From IMG/VR virus record IMGVR_UViG_3300020452_000067, positions 1-39,120 of that record: a stretch of DNA of 39,120 bases. One strand, 5' to 3'. Below, one piece after another: positions 5,052 to 20,238 of the stretch. Under the pieces are notes generated by a model. The model saw nothing but the letters and a program-made list of their open reading frames with translations. It was not told the DNA's origin and did not search any database. The position numbers and the translations under genes are program-made. Each line of letters opens with the position of its first letter. Within the stretch, counting starts at the first letter, position 1. Source of the stretch: a virus.

Positions 5052-6560
5052 TTATTGTAGGTAAGGTAGATGTGACAGATTTTTAATTGTCTCAAGATAT
5101 TCCTTATGATCTACCATATTAGTTTTACTCTTATAGTCTTGAATATAATCATGCTGTTGTTTAGCATCATCATATAATGCCTGTGGATTTTTCCTTGACC
5201 ACATATACTCCTCTATTGCTTTGTTATTAATCATGTTAATGCCTTTCATTATCTGTATATAATTATCGTTACCCCAGAAATCTAACATATCATCAGTATC
5301 AAATATATCTAGGAACTCATGCTTACATTTTTCCTCCAAAGTCCTTACCCAGTCAGTTTTATGATCTTTCATATATCTCCAGAATTTAGAGTCAGTTCTA
5401 TTAGTACAATAATGTAAGTTTAAAAATTGTGTGTAGTCAAACAATCTTTTATTCTGACACATATTAAATCTATCTCTATTATAGTCTAGCATTTTAAGAG
5501 TAGAATTTACACTCAAAAATGTCTCTACCATGAATGTAAGGTATTGATGAGTCAATGCTTCAAGTGGTTCTATAAATCCACCTGCTAAACCTACTGCTAC
5601 ACAATTTCCTATCCAAGGTTTTTTCCAGTATCCACTATTCCATTTAAGTATCTTTGGTTCTTCACTTAATCTTTCAGAATGATTTATTGCTAACCAATTA
5701 TCAAAGTCATGCTTTGCTTCATCATCAGTAGTAAACTTAGATGAGTACAAATAACCCGTACCATATTCAGTTTGTGACGGGATCTGCCAAATCCACCCAT
5801 TTTTAGTCGCATTTGCTAGTGTGTAACTAGGAATAAAATCACTGTGATTTTTTATTTTCTGTGGTATTGCCCTGTCTAATGGTAAATGCTCAGATAAATC
5901 TACCCACTCTGCATCATCCAACTTATTAAGTAACATAGCATTGAGTCCACTTGCATCTACAAATAAATCTGCAGTTACTTCCCCACTCTTCTCACATATA
6001 ATACTCTGTATATTTTTACCATCAGTTTTTACCTCACTCACTTTATCTTCTATAATATTGACTCTGCCCTTTAAATATTTGAATAGAAACTCACATAATT
6101 TATCTGTTGTTATATGAAATGCAAAATCATGCTTATGTAATTCATAATCAGCAGGAATAGTATTTGTTGGTTCATTGAAGTTAATGCCACCAGTATAACA
6201 ATCATTAAGTAGAGAATAAAAGGAACTCACATTACTTGTTAATATTTCACTTCTAGTTCCTGTTTCATCATCTGCAACTTCCACAAATCCATGATAATAC
6301 TGTGTATGTGGAATCCAGTCCTTGAACAATACACCTAACTTAACTGTTGCATCTAATTCTCTAATAACATCCTCTGTATTATATCCTAAAGTTTCTTCAA
6401 ACACATCAACAAAACTAGGTGTAGTTCCCTCCCCTACACCTATACTTTGATTCTCTGGATTATAATACAATGATATATTAACTTTATCTTTCCAAAAATT
6501 ATTGAATAATGCAGCAGTAACTAATCCAGATGTACCACCTCCAACTATTACTATATTCAT
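5052..6560 (-). CDS. Flavin-dependent tryptophan-halogenase-type enzyme
   Basis: In this family, reduced FAD and oxygen form hypohalous acid that chlorinates or brominates an aromatic substrate, classically tryptophan. From the ATG at 6560 the protein has 502 residues, the usual family length. FAD motif GGGTSG lies at 7-12. The lysine equivalent to the catalytic Lys of PrnA/PyrH is in TVKLGVLFKDW (Lys74). The family signature GWIWQIP is at 255-261, and the conserved GGFIEPLEALTH segment with its glutamates is near 327-338. All expected catalytic elements are therefore present. The start overlaps the stop of the flavoprotein-like gene upstream by four bases (ATGA, 6557-6560); a TTG at 6566 is less likely. 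Substrate and halide cannot be deduced. A reductase partner is not seen here and may come from the host. Confidence 0.9.
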   Translation of the reverse strand: MNIVIVGGGTSGLVTAALFNNFWKDKVNISLYYNPENQSIGVGEGTTPSFVDVFEETLGYNTEDVIRELDATVKLGVLFKDWIPHTQYYHGFVEVADDETGTRSEILTSNVSSFYSLLNDCYTGGINFNEPTNTIPADYELHKHDFAFHITTDKLCEFLFKYLKGRVNIIEDKVSEVKTDGKNIQSIICEKSGEVTADLFVDASGLNAMLLNKLDDAEWVDLSEHLPLDRAIPQKIKNHSDFIPSYTLANATKNGWIWQIPSQTEYGTGYLYSSKFTTDDEAKHDFDNWLAINHSERLSEEPKILKWNSGYWKKPWIGNCVAVGLAGGFIEPLEALTHQYLTFMVETFLSVNSTLKMLDYNRDRFNMCQNKRLFDYTQFLNLHYCTNRTDSKFWRYMKDHKTDWVRTLEEKCKHEFLDIFDTDDMLDFWGNDNYIQIMKGINMINNKAIEEYMWSRKNPQALYDDAKQQHDYIQDYKSKTNMVDHKEYLETIKNLSHLPYLQ

Positions 6561-7936
6561 ATACAATCGTATCCTATTGTTCCAAATGGTTCTGGTGGGT
6601 CAGTCTCTCCCAAAGTTGATAATAAATGAGCATACGGAGCTCCTAGACCTATTGAATATTCATAGAACATATTTGCATTGTTCATCCATGAGTAAGGTAG
6701 TATCAATTCTCCACTAGCATTTTGTGCGTGATGTGCTATTCTAAAATCCTCCTCAGTAAATGAGTCACTTATTATTTTATCTAAGAATTTATTTCCTGCA
6801 AATACGCCAGGATGTGCAAATACTGGACTGTTTAAATACTCAGTTGCTTGCTCTTTAAGTCTATTCCAGAATTCTGTATCATGTCTTGAACCATATTGAT
6901 AAGTAAAACATAAAAAAGACTGTAAAGTTTGTATAATATAACTTCCATAATTTAACTGTAGCATATGGTCATGCACTTCTCGATCTCTAGCATTATCATT
7001 ATAAAGGTATCTACATATTTGTTCTGCAACAAAATAAGTTGACTCTGCACTTGTGCCAGGCGATGCAGGTTCTATGTTTATTAATGCAGCACCATTTCTC
7101 ATATATCTTTTATTATCAGGATGTATTACATAATTTGATATTTTAGGTATCCATGAATGTTCTTCATAAAAGAATGTTCTTTGTCCACCATTGACTGTCT
7201 CATCAAATTTAAAATTAGGAAATACCTCCTTAAAATCCTCTACAACATCAAGTTCATGAGCAATATTATTATCATATAGATATATCCATCTTTGACTGTC
7301 ACGCAAGGGTAAACCCACTATGTGACCATACTTAGCAGCATATTCAATAGTATAATTCCAATTACCTTTTTCTGGTATTTCTATCATTATTGCACTATTA
7401 GTAAATGTCACACTAGGTTGCATATAATCCATTTCCCAACCTAATGGATTTTTTTCTGTGCAGTCTATGACATAATCATACTCATTATTATTAATTAAAC
7501 ACTTATCATCAGTAACAGAGAATGAATCTATTTTCTGTTGTATTATACTTACATTCTTTCCAAATATCTTACCACCATCTTCTAGAAAATGTTGTCTAAA
7601 TTTTTCAATATCAAATGTATTGCTACATCCTGATACCATAAAGTTTTTATCTCTTCTATTACCCCAACCAACATACTTATACCCACAACTATCAACACCG
7701 TCACAATACTTATCTAACCATCTTTTAGTAAAAAATATTTCTCTCTCTAATACTTCTTGAAAGGCAACACCAATACCACTTAACATATATGGATATACTT
7801 TGTCAGGGTCATGTATTAAAGTAAACTCATCATCACCAAATTTTTCTTTACCATCATACCTTCTATTCATTACTAATAATGATAACTGTATGAACGCTTC
7901 GGGTGTAGCACCCACTACTGCAATTTTTCTGGTCAT
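6557..7936 (-). CDS. Degenerate halogenase-like flavoprotein paralogue
   Basis: A 459-residue protein coupled by ATGA overlaps both to the halogenase downstream and to the 2OG oxygenase upstream. It keeps the general outline of a halogenase: an N-terminal beta strand and turn (KIAVVGATPEAF), a mid segment YGHIVGLPLRDSQRWIYLYD in place of the GWxWxIP region, and INIEPASPGTSAESTYF where halogenases have the conserved Pro-rich loop. Key residues are missing: the N-terminal loop is VVGATPEAF rather than GxGxxG, and no KxG lysine context is evident. It may be a non-catalytic partner, a substrate-binding subunit or an enzyme with altered chemistry. Assignment to the family rests on pattern and position, not on an alignment. 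Confidence 0.7.
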   Translation of the reverse strand: MTRKIAVVGATPEAFIQLSLLVMNRRYDGKEKFGDDEFTLIHDPDKVYPYMLSGIGVAFQEVLEREIFFTKRWLDKYCDGVDSCGYKYVGWGNRRDKNFMVSGCSNTFDIEKFRQHFLEDGGKIFGKNVSIIQQKIDSFSVTDDKCLINNNEYDYVIDCTEKNPLGWEMDYMQPSVTFTNSAIMIEIPEKGNWNYTIEYAAKYGHIVGLPLRDSQRWIYLYDNNIAHELDVVEDFKEVFPNFKFDETVNGGQRTFFYEEHSWIPKISNYVIHPDNKRYMRNGAALINIEPASPGTSAESTYFVAEQICRYLYNDNARDREVHDHMLQLNYGSYIIQTLQSFLCFTYQYGSRHDTEFWNRLKEQATEYLNSPVFAHPGVFAGNKFLDKIISDSFTEEDFRIAHHAQNASGELILPYSWMNNANMFYEYSIGLGAPYAHLLSTLGETDPPEPFGTIGYDCI

Positions 7937-8529
7937 GGCATAAAGTTGAAATTAATTAACACTCTTCGTTCATCCTTAGTTGGACTACCTGCGTGATAAT
8001 AATTTGATGGGAAAACAATTAATCTACCTTTCTTAGGTGATACTTTATCTACTGGACTCCACTGATGTTCAAATCTATTGTCTATTCCTATCTCATCATT
8101 AATATCTCTTTCTTGAAATAAGTATGTGTCTCCAGTGGCATCAGTAACATAATATATAGCACTAAATCCTCCAGAGTCAGTTGTATCTGTGTGTGGTGGA
8201 AAATGTACTATATCATCTTTTATTGGTGTCTGTAATATACCTCTAATCCTTACTGGTCTGTAGTCTGGTAAAATATCATCTACTACCTTACTCATTAAAC
8301 CTATCATAGTGTGATAGAGTGATGTATCCCATATCTTACCATCTTCAAATACATTAACAGTAAACTGTGGGTATCCACCACCTCTCTTATCACCTACTTT
8401 ATAATCCATTGAATCTTGCCAACTCCAAGGAATTTCTGGACTCGATAATAATTGTTCTATAACATCTTGGTAAGTTGGACTAACAAAATCATCAAAGACT
8501 TTAAATTTGTGTGCTATTGGTGTAATCAT
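7933..8529 (-). CDS. 2-oxoglutarate/Fe(II)-dependent oxygenase (hydroxylase family)
   Basis: Non-heme iron oxygenase that uses 2-oxoglutarate and O2 to hydroxylate a substrate. At 198 residues it has the size of the single-domain prolyl-4-hydroxylase-like group common in cyanophages. The iron triad is visible: HTD with His113 and Asp115, and His179 in NYYHAGSP; the 2OG-binding Arg is in DERRVLINF (188/189). The start overlaps the stop of the 89-residue gene (ATGA, 8526-8529). Its own stop overlaps the start of the flavoprotein-like gene (7933-7936). This links it to the halogenase pair and suggests it acts on the same small molecule or protein. Substrate unknown. Confidence 0.87.
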   Translation of the reverse strand: MITPIAHKFKVFDDFVSPTYQDVIEQLLSSPEIPWSWQDSMDYKVGDKRGGGYPQFTVNVFEDGKIWDTSLYHTMIGLMSKVVDDILPDYRPVRIRGILQTPIKDDIVHFPPHTDTTDSGGFSAIYYVTDATGDTYLFQERDINDEIGIDNRFEHQWSPVDKVSPKKGRLIVFPSNYYHAGSPTKDERRVLINFNFMP

Positions 8530-8795
8530 TCACAATCTTTGGTAGTTAATATATCAAATGGGATAATTTTGTCATCAAGTAAGAAGTCATGATACTGGTC
8601 GGGATCTTCAAAATTTTCCTCAACATTGTCCATAAATCCTTTGATTTCTCTAATGAGTTTCCAACAGGCATCTTGTTCAATTTTCTCCTCTGGAGATAAA
8701 TCTTTAAACCTACCTAGTCTAGCATAATACTCATACTTTAGTGTAATGTATTCCCTGACCTTAATAAAGTCTTGGAATGTTGCTACTTTGTCCAT
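8526..8795 (-). CDS. Hypothetical acidic 89-residue protein
   Basis: Starts MDKVATFQDFIKVREYITLK and is predicted helical in its first two thirds, with an acidic C-terminal part (NVEENFEDPDQYHDFLLDD). No family is recognised. It overlaps the end of the ligase-like gene by 13 bases and is joined to the 2OG oxygenase by ATGA. It therefore lies in a continuous coupled string from the nucleotidyltransferase to the halogenase. It could be a small adaptor in that string; this is inference from position only. Confidence 0.72.
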   Translation of the reverse strand: MDKVATFQDFIKVREYITLKYEYYARLGRFKDLSPEEKIEQDACWKLIREIKGFMDNVEENFEDPDQYHDFLLDDKIIPFDILTTKDCE

Positions 8796-9955
8796 GATTT
8801 TACAACGGTAATGTTTGCTTGCCTAAAATCATCATCAACAAACTTTAGGTTAGTACCTTTATATGATACCACATATCCCTCTGGTTGTGAAGGAACTCTA
8901 TCAACAAATGTTTTGATTCTATCAACTTTATTTAACTGACTTAATACCATTTTCTTAGCAGTACGAACTGAGATGTATGATGCTACCACAAAATAAATCT
9001 CCATCTCAAACTTTTGTATGAATTTTAAACCCATGTTCTTCATGTGCATATATCTTTTCTTTGCAGTCTCAGTCTTTTTCTTATCAATCTCTTCATCCAT
9101 TTTTCTAGCATAAAATAATGCAAAATCTCCTGCAACTCTCTTAGTGTCAACAACACCCTTACCAGTTCTAATTCTCTCATTGAAAAACTGTTTGAATAAT
9201 GTTGCCATCAAGAATTTAGATGTACCATACTCATGTATAAGTTTTAGAAATTCTTTTGATTTGTGAACTGAACCTGATGCTCTGTTGATAAGAGCAGTGT
9301 ACTTAGCACTGTCACGAACATTAAACTTAGTTATACCTGACTCATCTACAAAATTAGCATCTGGAACATAACACTCTTTAGTGCTAGGTATCTTTAACTG
9401 AGCATTTACTGCTGCTGTAGCAGTCTGTATAGTGTCTCCTAAGTAAACTGTATGAAATACTATACCTAACTCTGCCTCTGTGATACTGATGCCCTTGAGA
9501 GAGTCAACAGGAACTGCATAGGTAATAGCATTTGGTGTAAATGTAATATATCTTTCTCCATCTAAATTTGCATATTCTGTATCATTAGTAAATAACAAGT
9601 CTCCTTGAACCATACCTCTGATACCTAGTGTAGGTAGATACTTAAGACATACTTTGAGTTTATTTGCTAACTGTTCATCATCAGGTGCAAAATAATATAA
9701 ATCTATGTCTGTCTCTGTGTAACAAACTTTAGGATTGAACTTATTGAATACTGATTTAGTACCAACAAAGAATCTATCAGTCTGTGGGTCAATGCCACAA
9801 ATAATAGCAGGTGAACCATCCCACTTTGTACTAATTTTTAAGTCAGACTTTTTGCCAGTCAACATATGACCGAATGATTTGAGAAAGTCTATGGTTTCTT
9901 TAGGTGAACCATTAAGGATATTATCTTCTAAATGTTCTAGGTGTGTGTTTTTCAT
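8783..9955 (-). CDS. Nucleotidyltransferase of the ligase superfamily (KxDG motif)
   Basis: A 390-residue protein with the marks of covalent nucleotidyltransferases (RNA/DNA ligases, capping enzymes). Motif I TKWDGSPA has the candidate AMP-linked Lys44. Further motifs are FFVGTKSVF, a motif IV-like PEGYVVSYKG, and a motif V-like NLKFV near the C-terminus. The expected reaction is adenylation of the lysine followed by joining or modification of a nucleic-acid end. The frame is open to 9997, but the start is placed at ATG 9955 (MKNTHLEHLEDNIL). A GCTATAATAG promoter lies inside the upstream extension, and I recall cyanophage homologues beginning with KNTHLEH. Substrate (RNA, DNA, nicks or ends) is not deducible. 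It overlaps the next gene by 13 bases. Confidence 0.8.
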   Translation of the reverse strand: MKNTHLEHLEDNILNGSPKETIDFLKSFGHMLTGKKSDLKISTKWDGSPAIICGIDPQTDRFFVGTKSVFNKFNPKVCYTETDIDLYYFAPDDEQLANKLKVCLKYLPTLGIRGMVQGDLLFTNDTEYANLDGERYITFTPNAITYAVPVDSLKGISITEAELGIVFHTVYLGDTIQTATAAVNAQLKIPSTKECYVPDANFVDESGITKFNVRDSAKYTALINRASGSVHKSKEFLKLIHEYGTSKFLMATLFKQFFNERIRTGKGVVDTKRVAGDFALFYARKMDEEIDKKKTETAKKRYMHMKNMGLKFIQKFEMEIYFVVASYISVRTAKKMVLSQLNKVDRIKTFVDRVPSQPEGYVVSYKGTNLKFVDDDFRQANITVVKSWTK

Positions 9956-9961
9956 ATCTCT

Positions 9962-9967
9962 ATTATA
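9962..9967 (-). promoter_or_regulatory. Extended -10 promoter TGCTATAAT giving a near-leaderless mRNA
   Basis: The minus strand reads GTTTGCTATAATAGAGATATG, with the ATG at 9955. TGC before TATAAT is an extended -10 element, which can replace a strong -35 box; only a weak CACAAA is seen further upstream. The last base of the hexamer is seven bases from the A of the start codon, so transcription should begin at or next to the AUG. There is no Shine-Dalgarno sequence. This site decides the start of the ligase-like gene. Confidence 0.55.
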
Positions 9968-10006
9968 GCAAACTTTGTACCCTTTGTGTGAGTTCATTTG
10001 TGCCAG

Positions 10007-10606
10007 TTATTGAAATGGTTTACCAGATAACCATACTACTAAACTTTTCCTACTTCCTTTAGTGACAGGTGTAACTTGATGTAATGAATAACTTGGAAAC
10101 GCAATCACCAAACCTTTTTCCTTTGGAAGTGTTGAGAGTCTACTAGAATGAATTTGAAAATCACCACCCTCATACTCATCAGGATTTGATAACTGTAAGG
10201 TGATACTTAATTTTCGTTGAGGATATTCAGATCCTTTTATACCATTATCTATATGCCATCCATAAAAACAACCGTCACTATTATATCTTGTGTATTGTAA
10301 ATCTTCAGCAAATCCTGATATATCAAATCTCCAATGCAATCCATTTAAACATCTACATATATTTCCTAACCTTTCATATATCCACTCAGTATCCTTATTC
10401 AGTCCTATCCATGAATTTAATGATTTTCTTATTGCTTCATTTGATTTTTGTTTTTCTGAATCTGCACCTACTGTAGAGTTCATTGCATTATACAATTCAC
10501 CTATTTGAATTATTCTATCACATTCGTCAGGTGTAAATCCATCTTCCCAAGTTGCATAATCACACTCATCATATGTTGGATGAGGTAATAAAGGATAATG
10601 TGCCAT
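10007..10606 (-). CDS. 2OG-Fe(II) oxygenase, PKHD/prolyl-hydroxylase type
   Basis: A 199-residue hydroxylase using iron, O2 and 2-oxoglutarate. Iron ligands are His118 and Asp120 in GWHIDNG and His176 in SYSLHQVTPV; Arg186 in GSRKSLVVW would hold 2OG. The stretch LSITLQLSNPDEYEGGDF, followed by the 'SLH-VTPVT-G-R' block, is characteristic of PKHD-type hydroxylases (PiuC/prolyl 4-hydroxylase alpha-like). It is only distantly like the other oxygenase at 7933-8529, so the two are not recent duplicates. It starts 7 bases after the stop of the collagen-like adhesin gene with no promoter between, so it is co-transcribed with a protein full of Thr-Pro-Gly, a canonical prolyl-hydroxylase target form. 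Hydroxylation of that protein is a testable inference. Confidence 0.88.
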   Translation of the reverse strand: MAHYPLLPHPTYDECDYATWEDGFTPDECDRIIQIGELYNAMNSTVGADSEKQKSNEAIRKSLNSWIGLNKDTEWIYERLGNICRCLNGLHWRFDISGFAEDLQYTRYNSDGCFYGWHIDNGIKGSEYPQRKLSITLQLSNPDEYEGGDFQIHSSRLSTLPKEKGLVIAFPSYSLHQVTPVTKGSRKSLVVWLSGKPFQ

Positions 10607-10613
10607 AATAAAA

Positions 10614-12383
10614 TTAGTAAATTACTCGAATGTCTCCTCCATTTGGGATGACTTGATAAGGTGTACCAGAGACTGCTCTACCTGCAGCACCTCCACCAGG
10701 ATTTGTCTTACCCCAGTCTCCACCTGCAACACCATCTTGACCAGGTGTACCAGGTGTACCAGGTTGACCATCACCACCAGGTGTACCAGGTGTACCAGGT
10801 TGACCTGGTGTGCCAGGTGTGCCAGGTGTCCCATCACCGCCAGGTGTTCCATCTGTACCAGGTGTACCATCAGTACCTGGTTGACCAGGTGCACCATCAG
10901 TTGCAGCACCACCTTGTGCGGGTTGACCTGGTTGTCCACCAGAACCAGGATTTCCACTGCTTCCTTGTCCACCTCCTGTACCTGGTTGACCTTGTGTACC
11001 TTGAGTTGCTGCAGTTGCTGAAGTACCAGGTGTACCAGGTGTCCCTGCACCACCAGGTGTTCCTTGTGTGCCTGGTTGCCCTCCTGATGAGTTTAAAGTT
11101 CCAGTTAGATTGTTCCAACCTCTACCTCCACTACCAGAACCTGCTAATCCTTTAATACCCTTAACTCCATTATAACCCCCTTGTCCAGCTAAACCACCTT
11201 GTCCTCCTTGACCATGTAAACCCTTAACACCACCTTGTCCACCAGTACCTGCTCCACCACCTGCTCCTTTTCCTCCTCCAGAACCACCTTGTCCTCCATC
11301 ACCACCTGCCATAGCAACACGATTGTTGATAGCATATTGTTGTGACTGCTGAACATTTGCAGTTTGTTGTGTTGACTGTGTAGTAGTTTGACAACTAGGA
11401 TACCTTGACCACCATTCTCTGCGTCTTGAACAATTTTGACTGTAACTTAAAATAGTTTGTTGTGCTGTACTATTAACTCTTTGCCAGTTATATGAAATCC
11501 ATGTCTGCTGACCTGGTTGACCTGGTTGACCAGATGAACCTGGTGTACCCTCTATTCCATCACTACCTGAGTTGCCAGGTGTGCCATCTGTACCATCTGT
11601 ACCATCAACGCCAGGTTGACCGTCAACCCCTGCTTGACCTGGTGAGACATTATTAGTTCCATCTACACCATCCACACCATCCACACCATCAAATCCTCCA
11701 CCACCACCTGCCCATATTTTAGAAGTTGATCCTTCACATGATACAAATACAACTCTAGTTGCAGGTGCAGAGGGATTTGATATTGTTATAGCATGACCAC
11801 CAGGATTTCCTGATCCAGAACCTTTGACACCACCTGCTGCCATGATACCACTACCTGCAGGGGAATTATTAACAAATAGATTAAGATTAGATGATGCAGA
11901 GCTAGCAATGGATACAGCAGGTGTGCTAGTATCATCTGAAACTATCCTACCTCTAATTTTTAAGTATTTGGTAATATTTCTATTGAGGTTATTTCCCCAG
12001 TTTACACTAGCAGTTGGTGTGTCAGGTCCTGTAAGACTACCTGCATCAAATTTCTGCTCAGTTGCATTTGGGTCTTGTTCTATAACATATTCTTTTATTA
12101 TATCTTTTACATCTTGAGGTGATATAGCACCACTTGTGGGTACTCCAACATTTTCTACAGCATCTAAAATATATGGTAAATGTGGATCTGATGATGTAGG
12201 ATGTGCAGGAAAATTATATGGTGCGTCTATATCTGTAACTCTATACAATTCTGATGCAGAGATAGATTTTGATGTATCACCTATCGCTGCTCTAATTTGA
12301 CCAAATGAAAACTCGGTATTATTTGGTATATCAGATGTTTTTAATAATTGTTGGGTAGTATTTGACCAATCAGGTGCTGCCAT
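10614..12383 (-). CDS. Collagen-like and poly-glycine tail fibre/adhesin protein
   Basis: A 589-residue virion protein, probably a fibre tip or receptor-binding adhesin. Layout: an alpha/beta N-terminal region (1-225) with a DVKDIIKEYV helix. A first Gly-X-Y block follows (about 231-291), then a Trp, Gln and Ser-rich insert with two Cys (295-350). Next come a poly-glycine block (359-421, GGQGGSGGG type) and a long collagen-like block (about 435-554) made of GTP, GQP and GTD triplets. It ends with a short tail after GGGAAGRAVSG. In the Gly-X-Y block proline is always in Y, so X-Pro-Gly recurs. The poly-glycine block recalls the glycine-rich tips of T-even gp38-type adhesins (possible polyglycine-II packing). 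It is third in the fibre operon, followed 7 bases later by a hydroxylase gene. Confidence 0.85.
   Translation of the reverse strand: MAAPDWSNTTQQLLKTSDIPNNTEFSFGQIRAAIGDTSKSISASELYRVTDIDAPYNFPAHPTSSDPHLPYILDAVENVGVPTSGAISPQDVKDIIKEYVIEQDPNATEQKFDAGSLTGPDTPTASVNWGNNLNRNITKYLKIRGRIVSDDTSTPAVSIASSASSNLNLFVNNSPAGSGIMAAGGVKGSGSGNPGGHAITISNPSAPATRVVFVSCEGSTSKIWAGGGGGFDGVDGVDGVDGTNNVSPGQAGVDGQPGVDGTDGTDGTPGNSGSDGIEGTPGSSGQPGQPGQQTWISYNWQRVNSTAQQTILSYSQNCSRRREWWSRYPSCQTTTQSTQQTANVQQSQQYAINNRVAMAGGDGGQGGSGGGKGAGGGAGTGGQGGVKGLHGQGGQGGLAGQGGYNGVKGIKGLAGSGSGGRGWNNLTGTLNSSGGQPGTQGTPGGAGTPGTPGTSATAATQGTQGQPGTGGGQGSSGNPGSGGQPGQPAQGGAATDGAPGQPGTDGTPGTDGTPGGDGTPGTPGTPGQPGTPGTPGGDGQPGTPGTPGQDGVAGGDWGKTNPGGGAAGRAVSGTPYQVIPNGGDIRVIY
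10722..11081 (-). repeat. Collagen-coding tandem repeat tract (TACACCTGG-type 9-mers)
   Basis: On the plus strand the tract is dominated by CCAGGTGTA and close variants (CCAGGTGTG, CCAGGTTGA, CCATCAGTA) in nine-base register. It encodes Gly-Thr-Pro, Gly-Gln-Pro and Gly-Thr-Asp triplets (residues about 435-554). Near-identical neighbouring units, for example around 10741-10800, are suited to slippage and unequal recombination, so the tract length may vary between isolates. Confidence 0.85.
11511..11693 (-). repeat. Second, shorter Gly-X-Y coding repeat tract
   Basis: Encodes residues about 231-291 of the same adhesin, with GVD, GTD, GQP and GTP triplets. The plus strand shows CCATCTGTACCATCTGTACC and CACACCATCCACACCATC direct repeats. 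It is less regular and more Asp-rich than the 10722-11081 tract and is separated from it by a Gln/Trp-rich insert and a poly-glycine block. Confidence 0.75.
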
Positions 12384-12387
12384 AACT

Positions 12388-14949
12388 TTATGTGAATGTT
12401 CCTAATACAATAGAACCTACTCCTACTAGATTTAGTACCGCAGTATTTCCTACTGTAATTATTTCATAACCAGTGGTTGCACTACCTACTAATGATCTCC
12501 ATTGATCATCTGCACAATATACTTGAAGTTGATGAGTAGGTGAGAAGTAACCCATGTTAGAAGTTGACCAACCAACTGGTTCATCTACTGGTACTGTGGG
12601 TGTCTGTGCAGTTTTATTAACTTCACTCTCAAATATAGGACCTTTAAATCCTCTAATTGAAACGAAATCATTAAGTGTCTTACCAAATGTTTCTGTGAGT
12701 AATCCTATGAAATTACCACTGCCTTGACCCATAGCAATTTTAAGTTTCATATCATGCTTACTGAACCATAAGTTACCAACATGATCTCCCTCACTATGGA
12801 AATATGATCCACCACTTGATGCTGTATTTCCCTCTGCAACAGGTAAACATAATGGTTGCCCTGCTGATCTCATATCTAATGCACCGCCAGGTTGAGTGGT
12901 ATTAAATCCAATTTGAATTGTATTTGTACCAACACCAATAGTACCACCTATGCCAGTATGATCTCCAAATAATCTAATATTTCTATAGATATCTACATTT
13001 TCCAGACCTTCACTTGTAGCAGCAACTGCAGTTGTACCAATACCAATACTACCACTCTCAAATATACTTACTGAATCTAATAAAGCATTACCGTTTCTAC
13101 CATAACCAACATAGAACTTACTATTCATCAATCTGTCACCAGATGTTGTTCCAATACCCACACCCTGAGAGTATGCGTCCATGAACAATTCTGACTGTGT
13201 AGAATATATCTCAACACCATCAGTAATTCTACGATTACCAGTATTGACTCCAATATATTGACCAAAGATTCTGGTATTCTGTCCAGATGTAACCAATATA
13301 TCACTAAATGTGCTTATACCTGATGCTCTATATCCAACAGCAGATACAACACCTGTAAGACCATCAATTTTAATTTGACCCGTTGATATTGTTCCAATAC
13401 CCGTTACATTTAAACCACCTGCTATTTCTAAACTACTTGCTTTTGCAATTCCTATTGTAGATATACCTGCAATATTAATATTAGATCCAACTATATTTTG
13501 ACCTGTAATATTTCCACCACTAATAGCACCAGTCGCTGTAATACCATCAGCACCAGTGATAGAACCATTCATAGTAATTCCTGATCCTAGGATTAGTCCA
13601 CCACCATTCAACACTCTTATATCTGACCCTGCAACGGTATTACCAACAACTAGACCACTACCAATAGTCTGTCCTCCACCAATATTTGAACTATCAGTTG
13701 CATCTAATTCTCCTGCGGTTACAGTTCCAGTAACATTAAAGTCAGCACCACCTGTAACAGTTCCTTGGAATGTTGATATACCTGCAACAGATAGACCTGC
13801 ACCAACATTAAGTACATTGATATTTTGTGTAGAACCTAATTCAACACTACCTACTAAACTACCACCAATTGATATACTTCCACCTAATATTAGATCACCA
13901 TTATGAACTCTAACTGTTCCAATAAAACCTGCAGCATCACCAACAGCAGATGAAGTATTACCTACACCTAAAAATTCTCCAACTCTTAATTCTTCTCCTA
14001 CTGTACTAACACCTGCACCTCTGAGGAATGTGGGTGCTGTACCATTAATATCAACTGAATCTACTTGAATATCTGGATCTCCACCTATACCATATGCTAT
14101 TGATGCATTTAATGATGTGGTTGCAGTTCCACTAAATGTGGTTGCAGTAATAATACCATTACTTGCTGTGATTCCACCTGATACTTGTATAGCATCAAAC
14201 TCTGTAAGGTTGGAGAATGTTCCACCTCCAGATACAACACTGCTGACAACTATAGCAGGTACATCAGTCAGTCCTTGTGCGTTGGTTGCAACTGTAGCAC
14301 TATCAGCATTACCTGCTAGACTTCCAACAAAGGCACTGGATGCTGTTATGGTTGAAAATGTACCAACCTCTGCATTTATATTACCCTGTCCTGCACCTGT
14401 TTCATTTAATACTGTAATATTTTTTGTTACTAATCCTTCAAATGTACCAATACCACTCTCGGCATCCATGTATATTTCATATCCTACAGCAAAATCTGCA
14501 CCACCTCTAGGTTGGTCAGTTCCAATTCCTACATCTTTTAATGTAAAAATGGTGTCACCTGCACCAGGATTTGTCCAAACTGATGCGGGAATATTTGTTA
14601 AATTTGCACCAGAACCGAAATATTCTACAGCAGTAACATTACCTTGTTCATCTACTGTAAATCCTGTAGTTCCAATACCAACTTGAAATGCTGCCTCTGG
14701 AACTGTAGTTCCTATACCTACTGACGATCCACTGCTAACAGCAATATCATTCTTAAATGAACTAATACCTGTAACTGTTACATTATTAAATTCTGCACCT
14801 TCAGATACTATAACATTACCACGAACATCCAACTGCTGTCTAGGTATTGTACTACCAATACCCACCAGACCATTATTGGAGATCAGGTCATCAGTATCTA
14901 CTTGAATCCCATCTCTGAAATTTATGACGGTTTTATAATTGCTTGGCAT
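12388..14949 (-). CDS. Tail fibre-like structural protein with VGIGT repeats
   Basis: An 853-residue virion protein. The motif VGIGT/S followed by a Pro and a short strand recurs many times (near residues 30, 76, 141, 600 and 640). It is set in a Ser, Thr, Gly, Asn-rich beta-repeat chain (GGGTFSNLTEF, GAISGGNITG). Such repeats are typical of trimeric phage fibres with beta-helical or knitted shafts. The N-terminus MPSNYKTVINFRDGIQVDTD probably joins it to the fibre or baseplate base. The C-terminus (WSTSNMGYFSPTHQLQVYCADDQW, then GYEIITVGNTAVLNLVGVG) looks like a compact tip. It sits between the S74-type fibre and the collagen-like adhesin in one operon, five bases before the latter. No enzyme motif is seen. 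Confidence 0.85.
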   Translation of the reverse strand: MPSNYKTVINFRDGIQVDTDDLISNNGLVGIGSTIPRQQLDVRGNVIVSEGAEFNNVTVTGISSFKNDIAVSSGSSVGIGTTVPEAAFQVGIGTTGFTVDEQGNVTAVEYFGSGANLTNIPASVWTNPGAGDTIFTLKDVGIGTDQPRGGADFAVGYEIYMDAESGIGTFEGLVTKNITVLNETGAGQGNINAEVGTFSTITASSAFVGSLAGNADSATVATNAQGLTDVPAIVVSSVVSGGGTFSNLTEFDAIQVSGGITASNGIITATTFSGTATTSLNASIAYGIGGDPDIQVDSVDINGTAPTFLRGAGVSTVGEELRVGEFLGVGNTSSAVGDAAGFIGTVRVHNGDLILGGSISIGGSLVGSVELGSTQNINVLNVGAGLSVAGISTFQGTVTGGADFNVTGTVTAGELDATDSSNIGGGQTIGSGLVVGNTVAGSDIRVLNGGGLILGSGITMNGSITGADGITATGAISGGNITGQNIVGSNINIAGISTIGIAKASSLEIAGGLNVTGIGTISTGQIKIDGLTGVVSAVGYRASGISTFSDILVTSGQNTRIFGQYIGVNTGNRRITDGVEIYSTQSELFMDAYSQGVGIGTTSGDRLMNSKFYVGYGRNGNALLDSVSIFESGSIGIGTTAVAATSEGLENVDIYRNIRLFGDHTGIGGTIGVGTNTIQIGFNTTQPGGALDMRSAGQPLCLPVAEGNTASSGGSYFHSEGDHVGNLWFSKHDMKLKIAMGQGSGNFIGLLTETFGKTLNDFVSIRGFKGPIFESEVNKTAQTPTVPVDEPVGWSTSNMGYFSPTHQLQVYCADDQWRSLVGSATTGYEIITVGNTAVLNLVGVGSIVLGTFT

Positions 14950-14976: not shown

Positions 14977-17900
14977 TTATTTATCTTTGATGTCATCAAC
15001 CTTATTAGAAAGATCTTTGACTGCCTCTATTAACAGAGGTATAAGTTTATTATAGTGGACACCTTTAGTGCCATCAGGTTTGGTAGATACTGCTTCGGGA
15101 AGAACCTTCTCAATATCTTGTGCGATCACACCAATGTCATGTCCAGAATAGTTTTTGTTACCTTCCTTCCAATCGTATTCAGTACCACGAATCTGCATAA
15201 CCTTAGCTAATGGATTCTCTAATGTAGATACATTTTCTTTTAATGATATATCAGAGGATTGACCATAGAATGCGACAATATCATCACACACATGTAAAGG
15301 TCCTCCACAGAATGTAGCACCTGCACCTGCAAAGTACACATCACCACTAAATGTTGTGAATCCAGTATTCTGAACTATTTGGTTGTAAGTTACAGGTGCA
15401 TCATACTGTGTATCGGTTGCGATTGCAACTCTGAAACCAGGTGCTGCATTTAAAATCAAGTTACCTTGAAGTGTTTTAGTTGTAATCTCATTCTTATTAG
15501 TACCAACACCAACAAGCACATTGTTGATAGCAGCACCGTTAGGGAATGAACCAGTAAAGTCTATATCACCTGCTAGTTCGATAGTTCCACTAGATACCAC
15601 CTTACCAGTCATGGAGACATCATTTGTCATAGTAACAGGACCATCAAGTTGTGATAGTATGTTTTGACCTGCACCACCCTCAACATTAAGTCTCTGTTTG
15701 ACAGTAACTTCATCAAATACAACAGAGTTTGCAGAAGGATCTTCTCCTGTAATACTTGGAATAGGAATATCAAATGATTTTTCCTGTCCAGTTGCAGAGT
15801 TAATCTTCTTGTTACCAATAAAGAAGTCTCCTCTATTATTCAGTCCAGTATAAACATTAGTACCACCACCTCTGTTTTGTGACTGTGCTAAGTATTCTTC
15901 AGTCTCAGTAAGAGTCCTGTTCTGAACTTGTGGTAGACCAGTTGAGTAGTTACCAGGACCATAACCAAGATATTCAAATGTGTGACCTGATGCTCTAAGT
16001 ATCGAAGGTCTTCTACTCTCCACTGCTAGAGTTTTTATCTTCCGCATTGGAGTGTTAATCGCATGAGTTTTAGGAACTGTTCCTAATTGTCCTCTAAGAA
16101 CAGTAAGTGAATCATTTCCTGATCCAGTTAGTCCTGTAGCAGAAACTCTTACAATCTCTTCATTAAGTTCAAGGTAATCTCCTAACTCAAATCTATTTGC
16201 AGTACCAATACCACTGGCATGTTGTACTGGAATTATTGTTGCTGTATTTGTTATGTCAGTTTTTAATCCTACACTATCTCCACCATATAGATTGAAATAT
16301 CTAGCACCTATTGCTTCTTTAACATCAACTGTTTGATTGTTGTCTGAGAAAGCATGTGGTAGTATTCTATATCCTGATACAAATACTGGATCTGTAACTG
16401 TGGTTGAGGTAAACTCATTAGGTGATGCGATAGTATTACTATAGAAATCTCCTACCTTATTATTATTGTTATCTACAACTGTAAACTGTCCACCTCTCCT
16501 GATATTATGAGGTGTGGATGTAGTAAATGTTGTCAATCCTGTAGTAACATCAAAGTGAGTAGACGCTATAGCAACAGAAGGACCTGATTTAAAGATATAT
16601 TGTCCAGATGCAGAATTATGAGGAATTATTGTAGGATCTCCTACTGTAGCAGCGATAGCAATACTACTTGGAGTTGGGAATGATAGTATTCTGTAATATC
16701 CATCATCTGTTTTACCAACACCAGTTACTTGTATTGTATCATTGACATTATTGATAATACCTGCAGTTGGAACTCCTATAGATGCACCTGTAAAGTTCTC
16801 AGGGTACAATGTCTCTCCACCTATAAAACCAGAGCCAGGTGACTGAAGTTTGAAGTATGTTATAGAAGTAGAACCAACACCAACTTTTATATGTGCTGTT
16901 GCACCATTCCAATTTTGTGATCCATCTAATAATCTTACATTATATTTGTCTGTAACAGCAAATCCTGTGCCACTACTGAATGGTGATAGATTTTCATATT
17001 CTTTCACCCCGTTAAAATCATGCTGATTGTCTAGTTGAACTGTTACAACACCTGCTGATACGGGAGTAACACTAGAGACAGCAAGACCAACACCAAAGTT
17101 TTGTGAGAATTTATCTATTGCTTCTCTGGTTGATGAGTTAAGTATATTATTAGAATCTACTTTACCAAGAGGAGCTCTCCTAGCAAATGATTTCATAGCA
17201 GGTGGATTCTTTCTTACATTATCTCTATCTAACTGTGGATAGAAGTCACTAACCTGTTGACTGTACTGTTGATCTGTAAATTCTGTTGGTGGTGTGTAAT
17301 CAGATGCTAAGATTTCTAATAGATATACACCATCAGTTTCATCCTTAGCATATGGTTTCAGTACAGTAGATCTATAAACATCAAAGTTACCTTTGTTATC
17401 TTTGACAGTAAATCTAGGTAGACTTAGACCTCTGCTTGCAGTATTGTCTATGAAATTACCTGTATTTTTTGTATCTCCATCTACATCAGTATTACTATAC
17501 TGGAATTCCATATTATTAGGAACTGCAGTTACAGTATAGAATCCATTATATCCTTTTTTATCTGCACCTGTAGGGTTGTTACTATCAAGAACATTCTCAG
17601 TATATACAAGTTGTCCTACTTTTACACCATGTGGTAGTTCTGCTCTAACTGTGACAGTATTGCCCACTTCACTTGTTGTTGCAATAAACCCGTAGTTTCT
17701 CTTAAAATTATTATCCGAAGAAGTAATTGAAGTTGCAGTAGCATCAGATGTTTTTGCGAATCCAGTTGTGCTTGAAGGTTGCAATACAAATCCATCTACG
17801 GGATCTCTTGAGTTCTCTGCTTCTTTTGGAATTACATAGCGAACTTTATATAATTTGTTATCAATACCTCTACGATCCTCATATCTCTTGAAGTATGATG

Positions 17901-20238
17901 CATCAGTCTCCTCATTATTCTTGACATAATCATTAGTATTAAGTTGACCGTAAAGATTAGAATTAGTGTCAGTTAAAACATACCAGTTTTTCTGTGTATC
18001 ATCAAATTGTACTGGATGTCCTATATCATTAGGTTTCTTATCACTTACTCTACTCTCTACTCTTAAATCACTACCACCATAGATTGATATAGGAATATTA
18101 TTTACAGCATTTGATAATGTGCTTGCTAATTTTAGTGCAGTTGATGTGGGTTTAATAGCATAGTAAACTCTATTTGGTTCTAATCCTTCTGGTAAATCAC
18201 CTGCATCACTGATAACACGAACAGTTTCACCATCTATAATACCAATATCCTGTATTGCTAGTTCAAAATTAGTATTAGGTACACCTGCAGTACTAAATTT
18301 AGTTCCTTGATGTGAGTTGATACCGATACTAGAAGTTTGAACACCAGTTGTTACATTCTCTGGCATATAAACTGGAGATCCAAATTCAGTACCACCTATG
18401 GATACATATAATTCTTCATTTAAGTTTGCACCTAATCTGTAACCCTGTGTTAATGGAAGTGGTGGTACATCCTCTCTATCAAATCCAGAGAGATATAAGT
18501 GTGATGATATACCTGCTTGTTTTGTCTTATTTACATCTAACTGGAAATATGATATTTTATCTCTGTCTTCTTCATAAGTAGGAACCCACTCAGGAGAAAC
18601 AATATGTGTGATATATCCTTGGTCATCTCTTGGGAAAGCATCAGGTCTAAATCCACCTGCAATCAAGGCATGTTGTCCAAAGTTGGAGTTAGAGTTAGTA
18701 ATTGATGCATCAGCACCACCTGACCCTTTAATATGACCATTATAACCAATAGCAAATACTGATACAATCTGCATGACCGCATCATTATCCATTTCTACAT
18801 GGGTTTGTTCCCATCCTTTACGATATATTGCACCACTATCTAAATGATAGACTGTATTAGGGTCAGTAGAACTAGATTCTGCTGCTAGTGTAGCACCTGT
18901 AGTTTTTTGATATGCTATTCCTTCGTATTGACGACTTTCTTTATTATATTTTACAAATGCTCTATCATCTTTCTGTAGTGATATACCAGTGAACTGTGCT
19001 ACAACCATTGATCTGAAACCAGTTGACTTAGCACCGTCTGCTTTCATACCGTTCATACCATATACAGAACGGAGTGAAGTATTAAAGATATATGGTGATG
19101 CTCCTTTTACAGTATCTGCTTCAATAGTTGCTCTTGCTGCACTAATATTTGTAGGTGTAGCAGGTAAGTTAGCAGGGACATCAGGTATTAAGTATGTAAA
19201 CTGAGTAGCTGATGGTACACTCTGAACAGATGTTGATATATTATAAGGTGTAACATTAACACCGCTAATCTTGATTGGTGTGCCTGTGGTTAATCCATGA
19301 GGTGACTGAGTTGTGACAGTTACCTGAGTTGTAGCTGTTGTACCATCACCTGCTATGATAGATGTTATGATAATAGGATCATTACCTAATGCACCAACTA
19401 TTTCATACTCTGGTCTTACTTTATCAAAGTCACCTAAGAAATTAGGATACTCATAATCTACTGCACGACCTGTTGGTTCTTGATATGCATAACTTAGTTT
19501 GTAATAGTACATACTAAGATCTGTTACATACCCTTCTACATCATTCACACCATCAGCATACTCAAAACAAGTTAGTTTGTGATGAGAGAATGTTGGTTTT
19601 GATTGATTTGCTTCATTAAACTGTTGATGGTCTGTATATACTAAACCATTCTCATTTCCATCAAAGAATGAGAATTGCCAGAAGTAACAACTACCTGTGA
19701 TCCTCATTATTGCGGATGGAGGTACTGCATCATCTGTAGGGTTTGGAACATATAACGGTCTTATTTTTGTCTTCCTTAAATCCATACCAACTATGGAAGT
19801 ACCTCTTGGTACAATTACACCACCATAGACTGAGTTAAATTTGTATAATACATTATTCTCAACTGATAAATCAAACTCACTTGTAAGACTTAATCCAAAT
19901 GTTAGTGATGCGAGTGCTTCTCCACCTGTAGGTGATACTGATAATGCTCTAGTTCCATCAGTAGGGTCTGGTTTTATTGCAAATCCTGGTCTGTTATCAA
20001 TCTGATGTTCACCTGGATAGATCAATATAGTTGTCTTATCTGTGTCATCATTATCAATACCTGGTTGATATGAAAATCTTGCAGACTCTATAAGAGCTCT
20101 TTGTATTGTCTTGAATGGTTTTGTTAAAGAGTTACCCTGATTAGTAATACTGTCTGTAGAGTCCAAATCATTTGGATTTACATAAAGGATTCTACCTTCG
20201 GTATTCTTTATAAAATTTTCTAACTTATTTAATGGCAT
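14977..20238 (-). CDS. Giant tail fibre protein with peptidase-S74-type C-terminal chaperone
   Basis: A 1753-residue protein, the largest in the window. The N-terminus (MPLNKLENFIKNTEGRILYV, then KPFKTIQRALIESARFS and TTILIYPGEH) is of the kind that begins right-handed beta-helix (pectate-lyase-like) domains in phage fibres. Long beta-rich stretches follow, with patterns such as TVTTQSPHGLTTGTPIKISG recurring in variant form. The last ~110 residues (SDISLKENVSTLENPL, YDWKEG, DIGVIAQDIEKVLPEAV, YNKLIPLLIEAVKDL) form a classic S74 intramolecular chaperone. That domain trimerises, folds the fibre and cuts itself off, with the SDISLK serine and lysine as likely catalytic residues. It is the first gene of the fibre operon and starts from the late-promoter region at 20270-20289. 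Probably host-recognition or side-fibre; which fibre is unknown. Confidence 0.9.
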   Translation of the reverse strand: MPLNKLENFIKNTEGRILYVNPNDLDSTDSITNQGNSLTKPFKTIQRALIESARFSYQPGIDNDDTDKTTILIYPGEHQIDNRPGFAIKPDPTDGTRALSVSPTGGEALASLTFGLSLTSEFDLSVENNVLYKFNSVYGGVIVPRGTSIVGMDLRKTKIRPLYVPNPTDDAVPPSAIMRITGSCYFWQFSFFDGNENGLVYTDHQQFNEANQSKPTFSHHKLTCFEYADGVNDVEGYVTDLSMYYYKLSYAYQEPTGRAVDYEYPNFLGDFDKVRPEYEIVGALGNDPIIITSIIAGDGTTATTQVTVTTQSPHGLTTGTPIKISGVNVTPYNISTSVQSVPSATQFTYLIPDVPANLPATPTNISAARATIEADTVKGASPYIFNTSLRSVYGMNGMKADGAKSTGFRSMVVAQFTGISLQKDDRAFVKYNKESRQYEGIAYQKTTGATLAAESSSTDPNTVYHLDSGAIYRKGWEQTHVEMDNDAVMQIVSVFAIGYNGHIKGSGGADASITNSNSNFGQHALIAGGFRPDAFPRDDQGYITHIVSPEWVPTYEEDRDKISYFQLDVNKTKQAGISSHLYLSGFDREDVPPLPLTQGYRLGANLNEELYVSIGGTEFGSPVYMPENVTTGVQTSSIGINSHQGTKFSTAGVPNTNFELAIQDIGIIDGETVRVISDAGDLPEGLEPNRVYYAIKPTSTALKLASTLSNAVNNIPISIYGGSDLRVESRVSDKKPNDIGHPVQFDDTQKNWYVLTDTNSNLYGQLNTNDYVKNNEETDASYFKRYEDRRGIDNKLYKVRYVIPKEAENSRDPVDGFVLQPSSTTGFAKTSDATATSITSSDNNFKRNYGFIATTSEVGNTVTVRAELPHGVKVGQLVYTENVLDSNNPTGADKKGYNGFYTVTAVPNNMEFQYSNTDVDGDTKNTGNFIDNTASRGLSLPRFTVKDNKGNFDVYRSTVLKPYAKDETDGVYLLEILASDYTPPTEFTDQQYSQQVSDFYPQLDRDNVRKNPPAMKSFARRAPLGKVDSNNILNSSTREAIDKFSQNFGVGLAVSSVTPVSAGVVTVQLDNQHDFNGVKEYENLSPFSSGTGFAVTDKYNVRLLDGSQNWNGATAHIKVGVGSTSITYFKLQSPGSGFIGGETLYPENFTGASIGVPTAGIINNVNDTIQVTGVGKTDDGYYRILSFPTPSSIAIAATVGDPTIIPHNSASGQYIFKSGPSVAIASTHFDVTTGLTTFTTSTPHNIRRGGQFTVVDNNNNKVGDFYSNTIASPNEFTSTTVTDPVFVSGYRILPHAFSDNNQTVDVKEAIGARYFNLYGGDSVGLKTDITNTATIIPVQHASGIGTANRFELGDYLELNEEIVRVSATGLTGSGNDSLTVLRGQLGTVPKTHAINTPMRKIKTLAVESRRPSILRASGHTFEYLGYGPGNYSTGLPQVQNRTLTETEEYLAQSQNRGGGTNVYTGLNNRGDFFIGNKKINSATGQEKSFDIPIPSITGEDPSANSVVFDEVTVKQRLNVEGGAGQNILSQLDGPVTMTNDVSMTGKVVSSGTIELAGDIDFTGSFPNGAAINNVLVGVGTNKNEITTKTLQGNLILNAAPGFRVAIATDTQYDAPVTYNQIVQNTGFTTFSGDVYFAGAGATFCGGPLHVCDDIVAFYGQSSDISLKENVSTLENPLAKVMQIRGTEYDWKEGNKNYSGHDIGVIAQDIEKVLPEAVSTKPDGTKGVHYNKLIPLLIEAVKDLSNKVDDIKDK
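14978..14984 (-). promoter_or_regulatory. Possible late-promoter element (GATAAATA)
   Basis: At the stop codon of the 1753-residue fibre gene the minus strand reads AAAGATAAATAACTC. The ATAAATA core matches T4-type late promoters (TATAAATA). The downstream fibre start lies 28 bases further on. It would allow separate late expression of the 853-residue and collagen-like proteins. The element overlaps coding sequence (Asp-Lys-stop), so its presence could be chance. Confidence 0.3.

Follow-up and report, generated by a model that had tools for sequence, protein, structure and literature searches.

The window spans 39,120 bases of a virus record, and its source is an uncultured marine T4-like phage. 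It encodes a T4-type tail module in which a baseplate hub is accompanied by a peptidase/tape-measure-like ORF and by a tail fibre gene (best PHROG, a tail fiber family, E=0). A tightly packed minus-strand operon runs from the tail fibre gene (14977-20238) through a tail protein (12388-14949) and an adhesin (10614-12383) to a 2OG-Fe(II) oxygenase (10007-10606), and continues past the latter with a DUF6267 gene (8783-9997), a small ORF, a second 2OG oxygenase (7933-8529) and two halogenase-like genes. The adhesin gene comes after the tail fibre genes, close to where their block ends. Seven bases (10607-10613) separate it from the oxygenase, and the ORF list gives the gene coordinates and this gap exactly as the original prediction had them. 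Promoter and terminator scans across the operon returned signal at shuffle background only. The DUF6267 gene (minus strand), for which no function is known, follows the oxygenase in nearly all related loci. The second oxygenase, also on the minus strand, has phrog_274 as its best PHROG and very few relatives in viral contigs; it was considered as a control family and dropped, its relatives occupying only 5 loci. The features of the adhesin-oxygenase pair are the following.

10007..10606, minus: PKHD/prolyl-hydroxylase-type 2OG-Fe(II) oxygenase (OX), 199 residues, from ORF, PF13640, AF2 and Foldseek
10049..10081, minus: iron ligand H176 to 2OG-binding R186, invariant across 44 homologues
10247..10255, minus: iron ligands H118-x-D120, invariant across 44 homologues
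10614..12383, minus: Gly-rich Gly-X-Y adhesin, 589 residues, the proposed substrate, from ORF and Pfam Collagen (E=1e-7)
10716..11081, minus: main Gly-X-Pro block, residues 435-556, Pro at Y 21 times and at X 0 times, three runs, tandem repeat
11133..11306, minus: Gly-Gly-X block, residues 360-417, polyglycine-II-like, without Pro
11310..11510, minus: segment between Gly-rich blocks, residues 292-358, Arg/Trp-rich middle, candidate receptor-binding loop
11505..11705, minus: first Gly-X-Y block, residues 227-293, Pro at Y 5 times and at X 0 times
11709..12383, minus: N-terminal domains of the adhesin, residues 1-225, conserved in 37 loci

The oxygenase had been described as complete, with all iron and 2OG ligands, and this is confirmed by the presence of H118, D120, H176 and R186. 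The protein matches Pfam 2OG-FeII_Oxy_3 (PF13640) at E=3e-16. Its AF2 model (mean pLDDT 88.9) finds the P. putida P4H/EF-Tu prolyl hydroxylase 4iw3, the PKHD structure 3dkq and the algal P4H 3gze as best PDB matches in Foldseek, with 4iw3 ranked first and the PBCV-1 vCPH structure 5c5t lower down; P4H, PKHD and PHD2 folds all occur among the matches. By sequence, the nearest proteins are PKHD hydroxylases (Sbal_3634, 3dkq, E=9e-13; PiuC, 9ghl, E=2e-9). A profile of the oxygenase family matches PKHD structures first and P4H structures next, and also matches the prolyl hydroxylases of B. anthracis (E=7e-8), an alga and P. putida. The marks of a PKHD-type enzyme (PF13640 and an HxD...H triad plus 2OG-binding Arg on a double-stranded beta-helix) are all found, as is the prolyl-hydroxylase fold with HxD...H that a collagen-type P4H shares. 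A Lys that binds the C5-carboxylate of 2OG is typical of collagen P4Hs; the oxygenase has R186 instead, aligned opposite the Lys of the B. anthracis P4H (3itq) at the 2OG-binding position. Because it lacks this Lys, the enzyme is kept out of the collagen P4H family. Of the predicted PKHD/prolyl-hydroxylase type, the PKHD half stands, and likeness to collagen P4Hs stops at the 2OG-binding residue. On its sequence, the enzyme is placed with the PKHD-type hydroxylases; its action may resemble that of the collagen prolyl hydroxylases, to whose family it does not belong.

The adhesin scores 31.9 bits against a Pfam Collagen cutoff of 27.2. Its Gly-X-Y triplets in runs of at least 6 number 76, a count reached by none of 2000 shuffles. 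Within residues 226-560, 26 of 28 prolines precede Gly and none follows it. In the adhesin, Asp takes the Y position 16 times. Residues 435-554 had been read as Gly-X-Y triplets with Pro at Y; both the triplets and the Y-position prolines are there, arranged not as one unbroken array but as runs of 7, 9 and 20 triplets interrupted at 456-461 and 489-496. The repeats also extend beyond that region, to the Gly-X-Y block at 227-293 with its five Y-position prolines and the proline-free Gly-Gly-X block at 360-417, so that a Gly-Gly-X block and an Arg/Trp-rich segment stand between the Gly-X-Y arrays. The AF2 monomer model of the adhesin is of low confidence (pLDDT 32.5), and its repeats may form either a triple helix or a polyglycine-II bundle. 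Because pLDDT is only about 32, we can but infer the long beta-hairpin that the model draws for residues 292-358. This segment, in which W325 is invariant among 13 adhesin relatives, is a candidate receptor-binding loop.

Like gp38-type adhesins, the protein has several Gly-rich motifs set apart by variable segments and is encoded late in the tail-fibre block; a gp38-family sequence match is absent, Pfam Collagen being the only match at E<=0.1. Queried with 120 codons of the repeat region, phmmer matched no solved structure, and tblastn with the adhesin matched no GenBank phage record. The earlier label of a collagen-like adhesin is justified by the Pfam score, but plain collagen is probably too simple a description for a protein that joins polyglycine-II-type blocks to Gly-X-Pro arrays. 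A polyglycine-II adhesin to which Gly-X-Pro arrays have been added is the closer likeness.

At the DNA level the main Gly-X-Pro block is a 9-bp tandem repeat, as would be expected if the arrays were functionless products of slippage and their pairing with the oxygenase accidental. The repeat unit is nevertheless degenerate, with 15 GTP triplets encoded by 6 different 9-mers, yet most Gly positions of the array are invariant among the 13 relatives, and Y-position Pro is retained in 37 of 37 loci that carry relatives of the adhesin N-terminus. Slippage is already disfavoured and would be a highly improbable explanation.

In viral contigs, the enzyme lies downstream in all 37 of these loci. It is the abutting next gene in 36, and 846 bases intervene in the remaining one. 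Each locus holds 25-46 copies of Gly-X-Pro-Gly and 0-4 of Gly-Pro-X-Gly. Because the entire operon is syntenic across related loci, this linkage is weak on its own and is not taken as proof. At five loci (L328, L329, L342, L354 and L355) the adhesin-linked oxygenase occurs twice in tandem.

Such operon-wide conservation is also what one would see if the enzyme acted elsewhere, in DNA repair, as a drain on 2-oxoglutarate or on a host protein such as EF-Tu, and lay beside the adhesin through the habit of syntenic late tail operons of gathering accessory genes. Published discussions of 2OG oxygenases in cyanophages treat them as DNA repair (PMC3037559) or 2-oxoglutarate-modulating, nitrogen-signalling (PMC2984593) genes, and the top Foldseek match of the oxygenase is the EF-Tu prolyl hydroxylase. 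Distant homologues likewise sit in oxygenase clusters of phages without Pfam Collagen. These homologues, at 33-39% identity, come from cultured cyanophages, pelagiphages and other GenBank phage records and fall mostly outside the window's clade; no cultured phage carrying an enzyme of that clade was found. Two of the phages, S-SM1 and S-RSM4 (L531, L522), have several 2OG oxygenases clustered near their tail fibre genes, and S-SM1 has in addition a gene annotated leprecan. Against an action elsewhere stand the recurrence of the pairing with other adhesin families and in reversed gene order, the strand of the linked ORFs, almost all on the same strand as the enzyme, and a background of one enzyme in 130 loci without any Gly-X-Y ORF. 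On balance, it is unlikely that the enzyme serves a purpose apart from the adhesin.

In a tree of 81 homologues the window enzyme belongs to a clade of 44 rows. The labels of neighbouring genes follow a lenient rule, requiring 3 or more Pro and a twofold bias, that was written into the script ahead of the tree. The clade members have 35 Y-Pro neighbours, 0 X-Pro, 3 Gly-rich without enough Pro and 5 with none, as against 12 X-Pro and 3 Y-Pro outside it. The enzyme tree tracks the proline position of the neighbouring genes: the Y label changes 11 times versus 26-27 times when shuffled, with 0 of 500 shuffles as low, although the shuffles leave relatedness in. A slower tree of 77 rows gives the same split with a clade support of 62/88, in which the bootstrap of 62 is weak. 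Within the clade, the adhesin precedes the enzyme in one subclade, and the order is enzyme-enzyme-gene-adhesin in another. Since the subclades differ in this way, the pairing was kept while gene order and adhesin type changed. A separate branch of the enzyme lies beside GPT-type (X-Pro) collagen-like genes (L207, L218, L224, L254 and L462); at L218 an S74 chaperone domain is present as well, and Lys occupies some of the Y positions.

Homologues in phages without a collagen-like gene had been named as the finding that would speak against a dedicated enzyme. They are common in the distant superfamily, where 11 of 12 GenBank phage records with 33-39% homologues have no Pfam Collagen match (Gly-rich ORFs are nearby in 5 of those 11), and largely missing from the enzyme's own clade, in which, of 43 members that could be classified, 38 have a Gly-X-Y gene no more than 2.5 kb away and 5 do not.

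Association was also measured by distance and from the side of the repeats. Around 36 enzyme representatives with less than 70% identity, Gly-X-Y ORFs make up 16-17% of the sequence up to 3 kb away and 3-5% of that lying 3-8 kb away. Repeat genes were then collected with patterns chosen without reference to the enzyme, counting as long the complete cases with at least 25 Gly-X-Y triplets. The plain GXP and GPX patterns, each its own reverse complement, also hit GC-rich sequence by chance in many places; these hits were screened by ORF content, and some of them served as background. Two AT-rich patterns are directional. The enzyme is found within 2 kb of 11 of 15 long Y-Pro genes and 9 of 72 X-Pro genes (Fisher p=5e-6, for loci that are related and not independent). 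Per protein cluster the same contrast is 5/9 versus 2/11, which is not significant (p=0.16), and at GC<0.5 the per-cluster p is 0.59.

A scan for Gly-Gly-X genes, sampled regardless of Pro, found a 2OG oxygenase within 2.5 kb in 13 of 31 complete cases. This would suit an enzyme whose target in the adhesin is not proline but, for example, Asp at Y or a residue in the loops, with Y-position Pro as a by-product of the fold. The 16 Y-position Asp residues of the window adhesin point in the same direction, as do enzyme-linked Gly-rich genes with little or no Y-Pro (L014, L020, L022, L599 and L641). One Gly-rich Y-Pro family (L126) is found without the enzyme, and Y-Pro per triplet does not differ significantly between genes with and without it in the Gly-Gly-X scan (p=0.12). 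The number of Gly-X-Pro-Gly motifs, a second measure tested after Y-Pro per triplet, is higher in Gly-rich adhesins with a nearby enzyme (4.7 versus 1.6, p=0.015). This enrichment and the complete lack of X-Pro neighbours in the window's enzyme clade argue for proline, and modification of another residue is judged rather unlikely.

It is probable, at roughly 0.6, that the phage enzyme hydroxylates the Y-position prolines of its own adhesin, because its branch keeps Y-Pro partners across many phages, whereas the partners of other branches show another proline pattern or are absent. The predicted devotion of the enzyme to the adhesin is supported by gene neighbourhood and phylogeny and is opposed by the distant records without Pfam Collagen. 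Both the substrate and the target residue are what we infer from gene context and repeat composition. In the proposed mechanism, OX would be a phage-encoded protein hydroxylase devoted to the adhesin encoded just upstream. Working inside the infected cell and drawing 2-oxoglutarate, Fe(II) and O2 from the host, it would hydroxylate the Y-position prolines of the Gly-X-Pro arrays during synthesis or folding of the chain. The hydroxyproline formed would promote the extended polyproline/polyglycine-II geometry and place extra hydroxyls on the surface, so that the Gly-rich part would gain in stiffness, solubility or stickiness. Stiffening or a tuning of receptor binding, as had been proposed, may follow from the hydroxylation.

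Further along the operon lie a flavin-dependent halogenase that appears intact (GGGTSG, WIWQIP; 5052-6566, minus) and a divergent halogenase-like neighbour (6557-7936, minus). The former matches RebH in the PDB (E=2e-49) and cyanophage VirX1 (E=1e-36), and halogenase-like genes follow the enzyme in nearly all related operons. It may be speculated that a Trp of the adhesin, such as the invariant W325, is the halogenase substrate. A broader proposal, put forward tentatively and with more doubt than confidence, is that many marine phages encode hydroxylases dedicated to the adhesins they make, one enzyme branch serving Y-Pro Gly-rich adhesins and another X-Pro collagen-like fibres, and that the enzyme of the window's lineage belongs to a wider adhesin-modification operon with the flavin-dependent halogenase.

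Hydroxylation of the adhesin, if true, would give one branch of the abundant and unexplained 2OG-Fe(II) oxygenases of marine phages a concrete substrate, and would mean that a phage adhesin is post-translationally modified by the phage's own enzyme. What viruses do with prolyl 4-hydroxylase was described as cryptic in a study of the Baltic Sea virome (PMC9301287). In viral and bacterial collagens, Pro is mostly at X with little at Y, a bias attributed to the missing prolyl hydroxylase (PMC3368898), to which the window would be an exception. No description of an adhesin-dedicated phage hydroxylase was found in the open-access literature searched, most subscription journals lying outside its scope.

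Several known systems resemble one or the other partner. The vCPH of the chlorovirus PBCV-1 is, like the window enzyme, virus-encoded and of P4H fold, and evidence of hydroxyproline in PBCV-1 viral proteins is credited to Eriksson 1999 where PMC9301287 cites it. However, it belongs to a eukaryotic algal virus, its sequence similarity to the window enzyme is weak (phmmer E=0.002), and no pairing with a tail-adhesin gene is known here. The Bacillus anthracis P4H, which acts on collagen-like peptides and prefers Y-position Pro (PMC8968730), is matched by the family profile but has Lys where the window enzyme has Arg. Sbal_3634 and PiuC share the iron triad and the Arg, yet are cellular bacterial proteins rather than phage genes beside a Gly-X-Y gene. 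Among adhesins, the collagen-like tail proteins of E. coli prophages (EPclP) also carry Gly-X-Y in putative tail fibre proteins; unlike the window adhesin, they have Pro at X and seldom at Y, and are reported without prolyl hydroxylation (PMC3368898). The polyglycine-II adhesin gp38 of phage S16 similarly combines Gly-rich motifs with variable segments at the tail-fibre tip (PMC6851490), whereas the window adhesin, which has no Pfam gp38 match, adds Gly-X-Pro arrays and a partner oxygenase.
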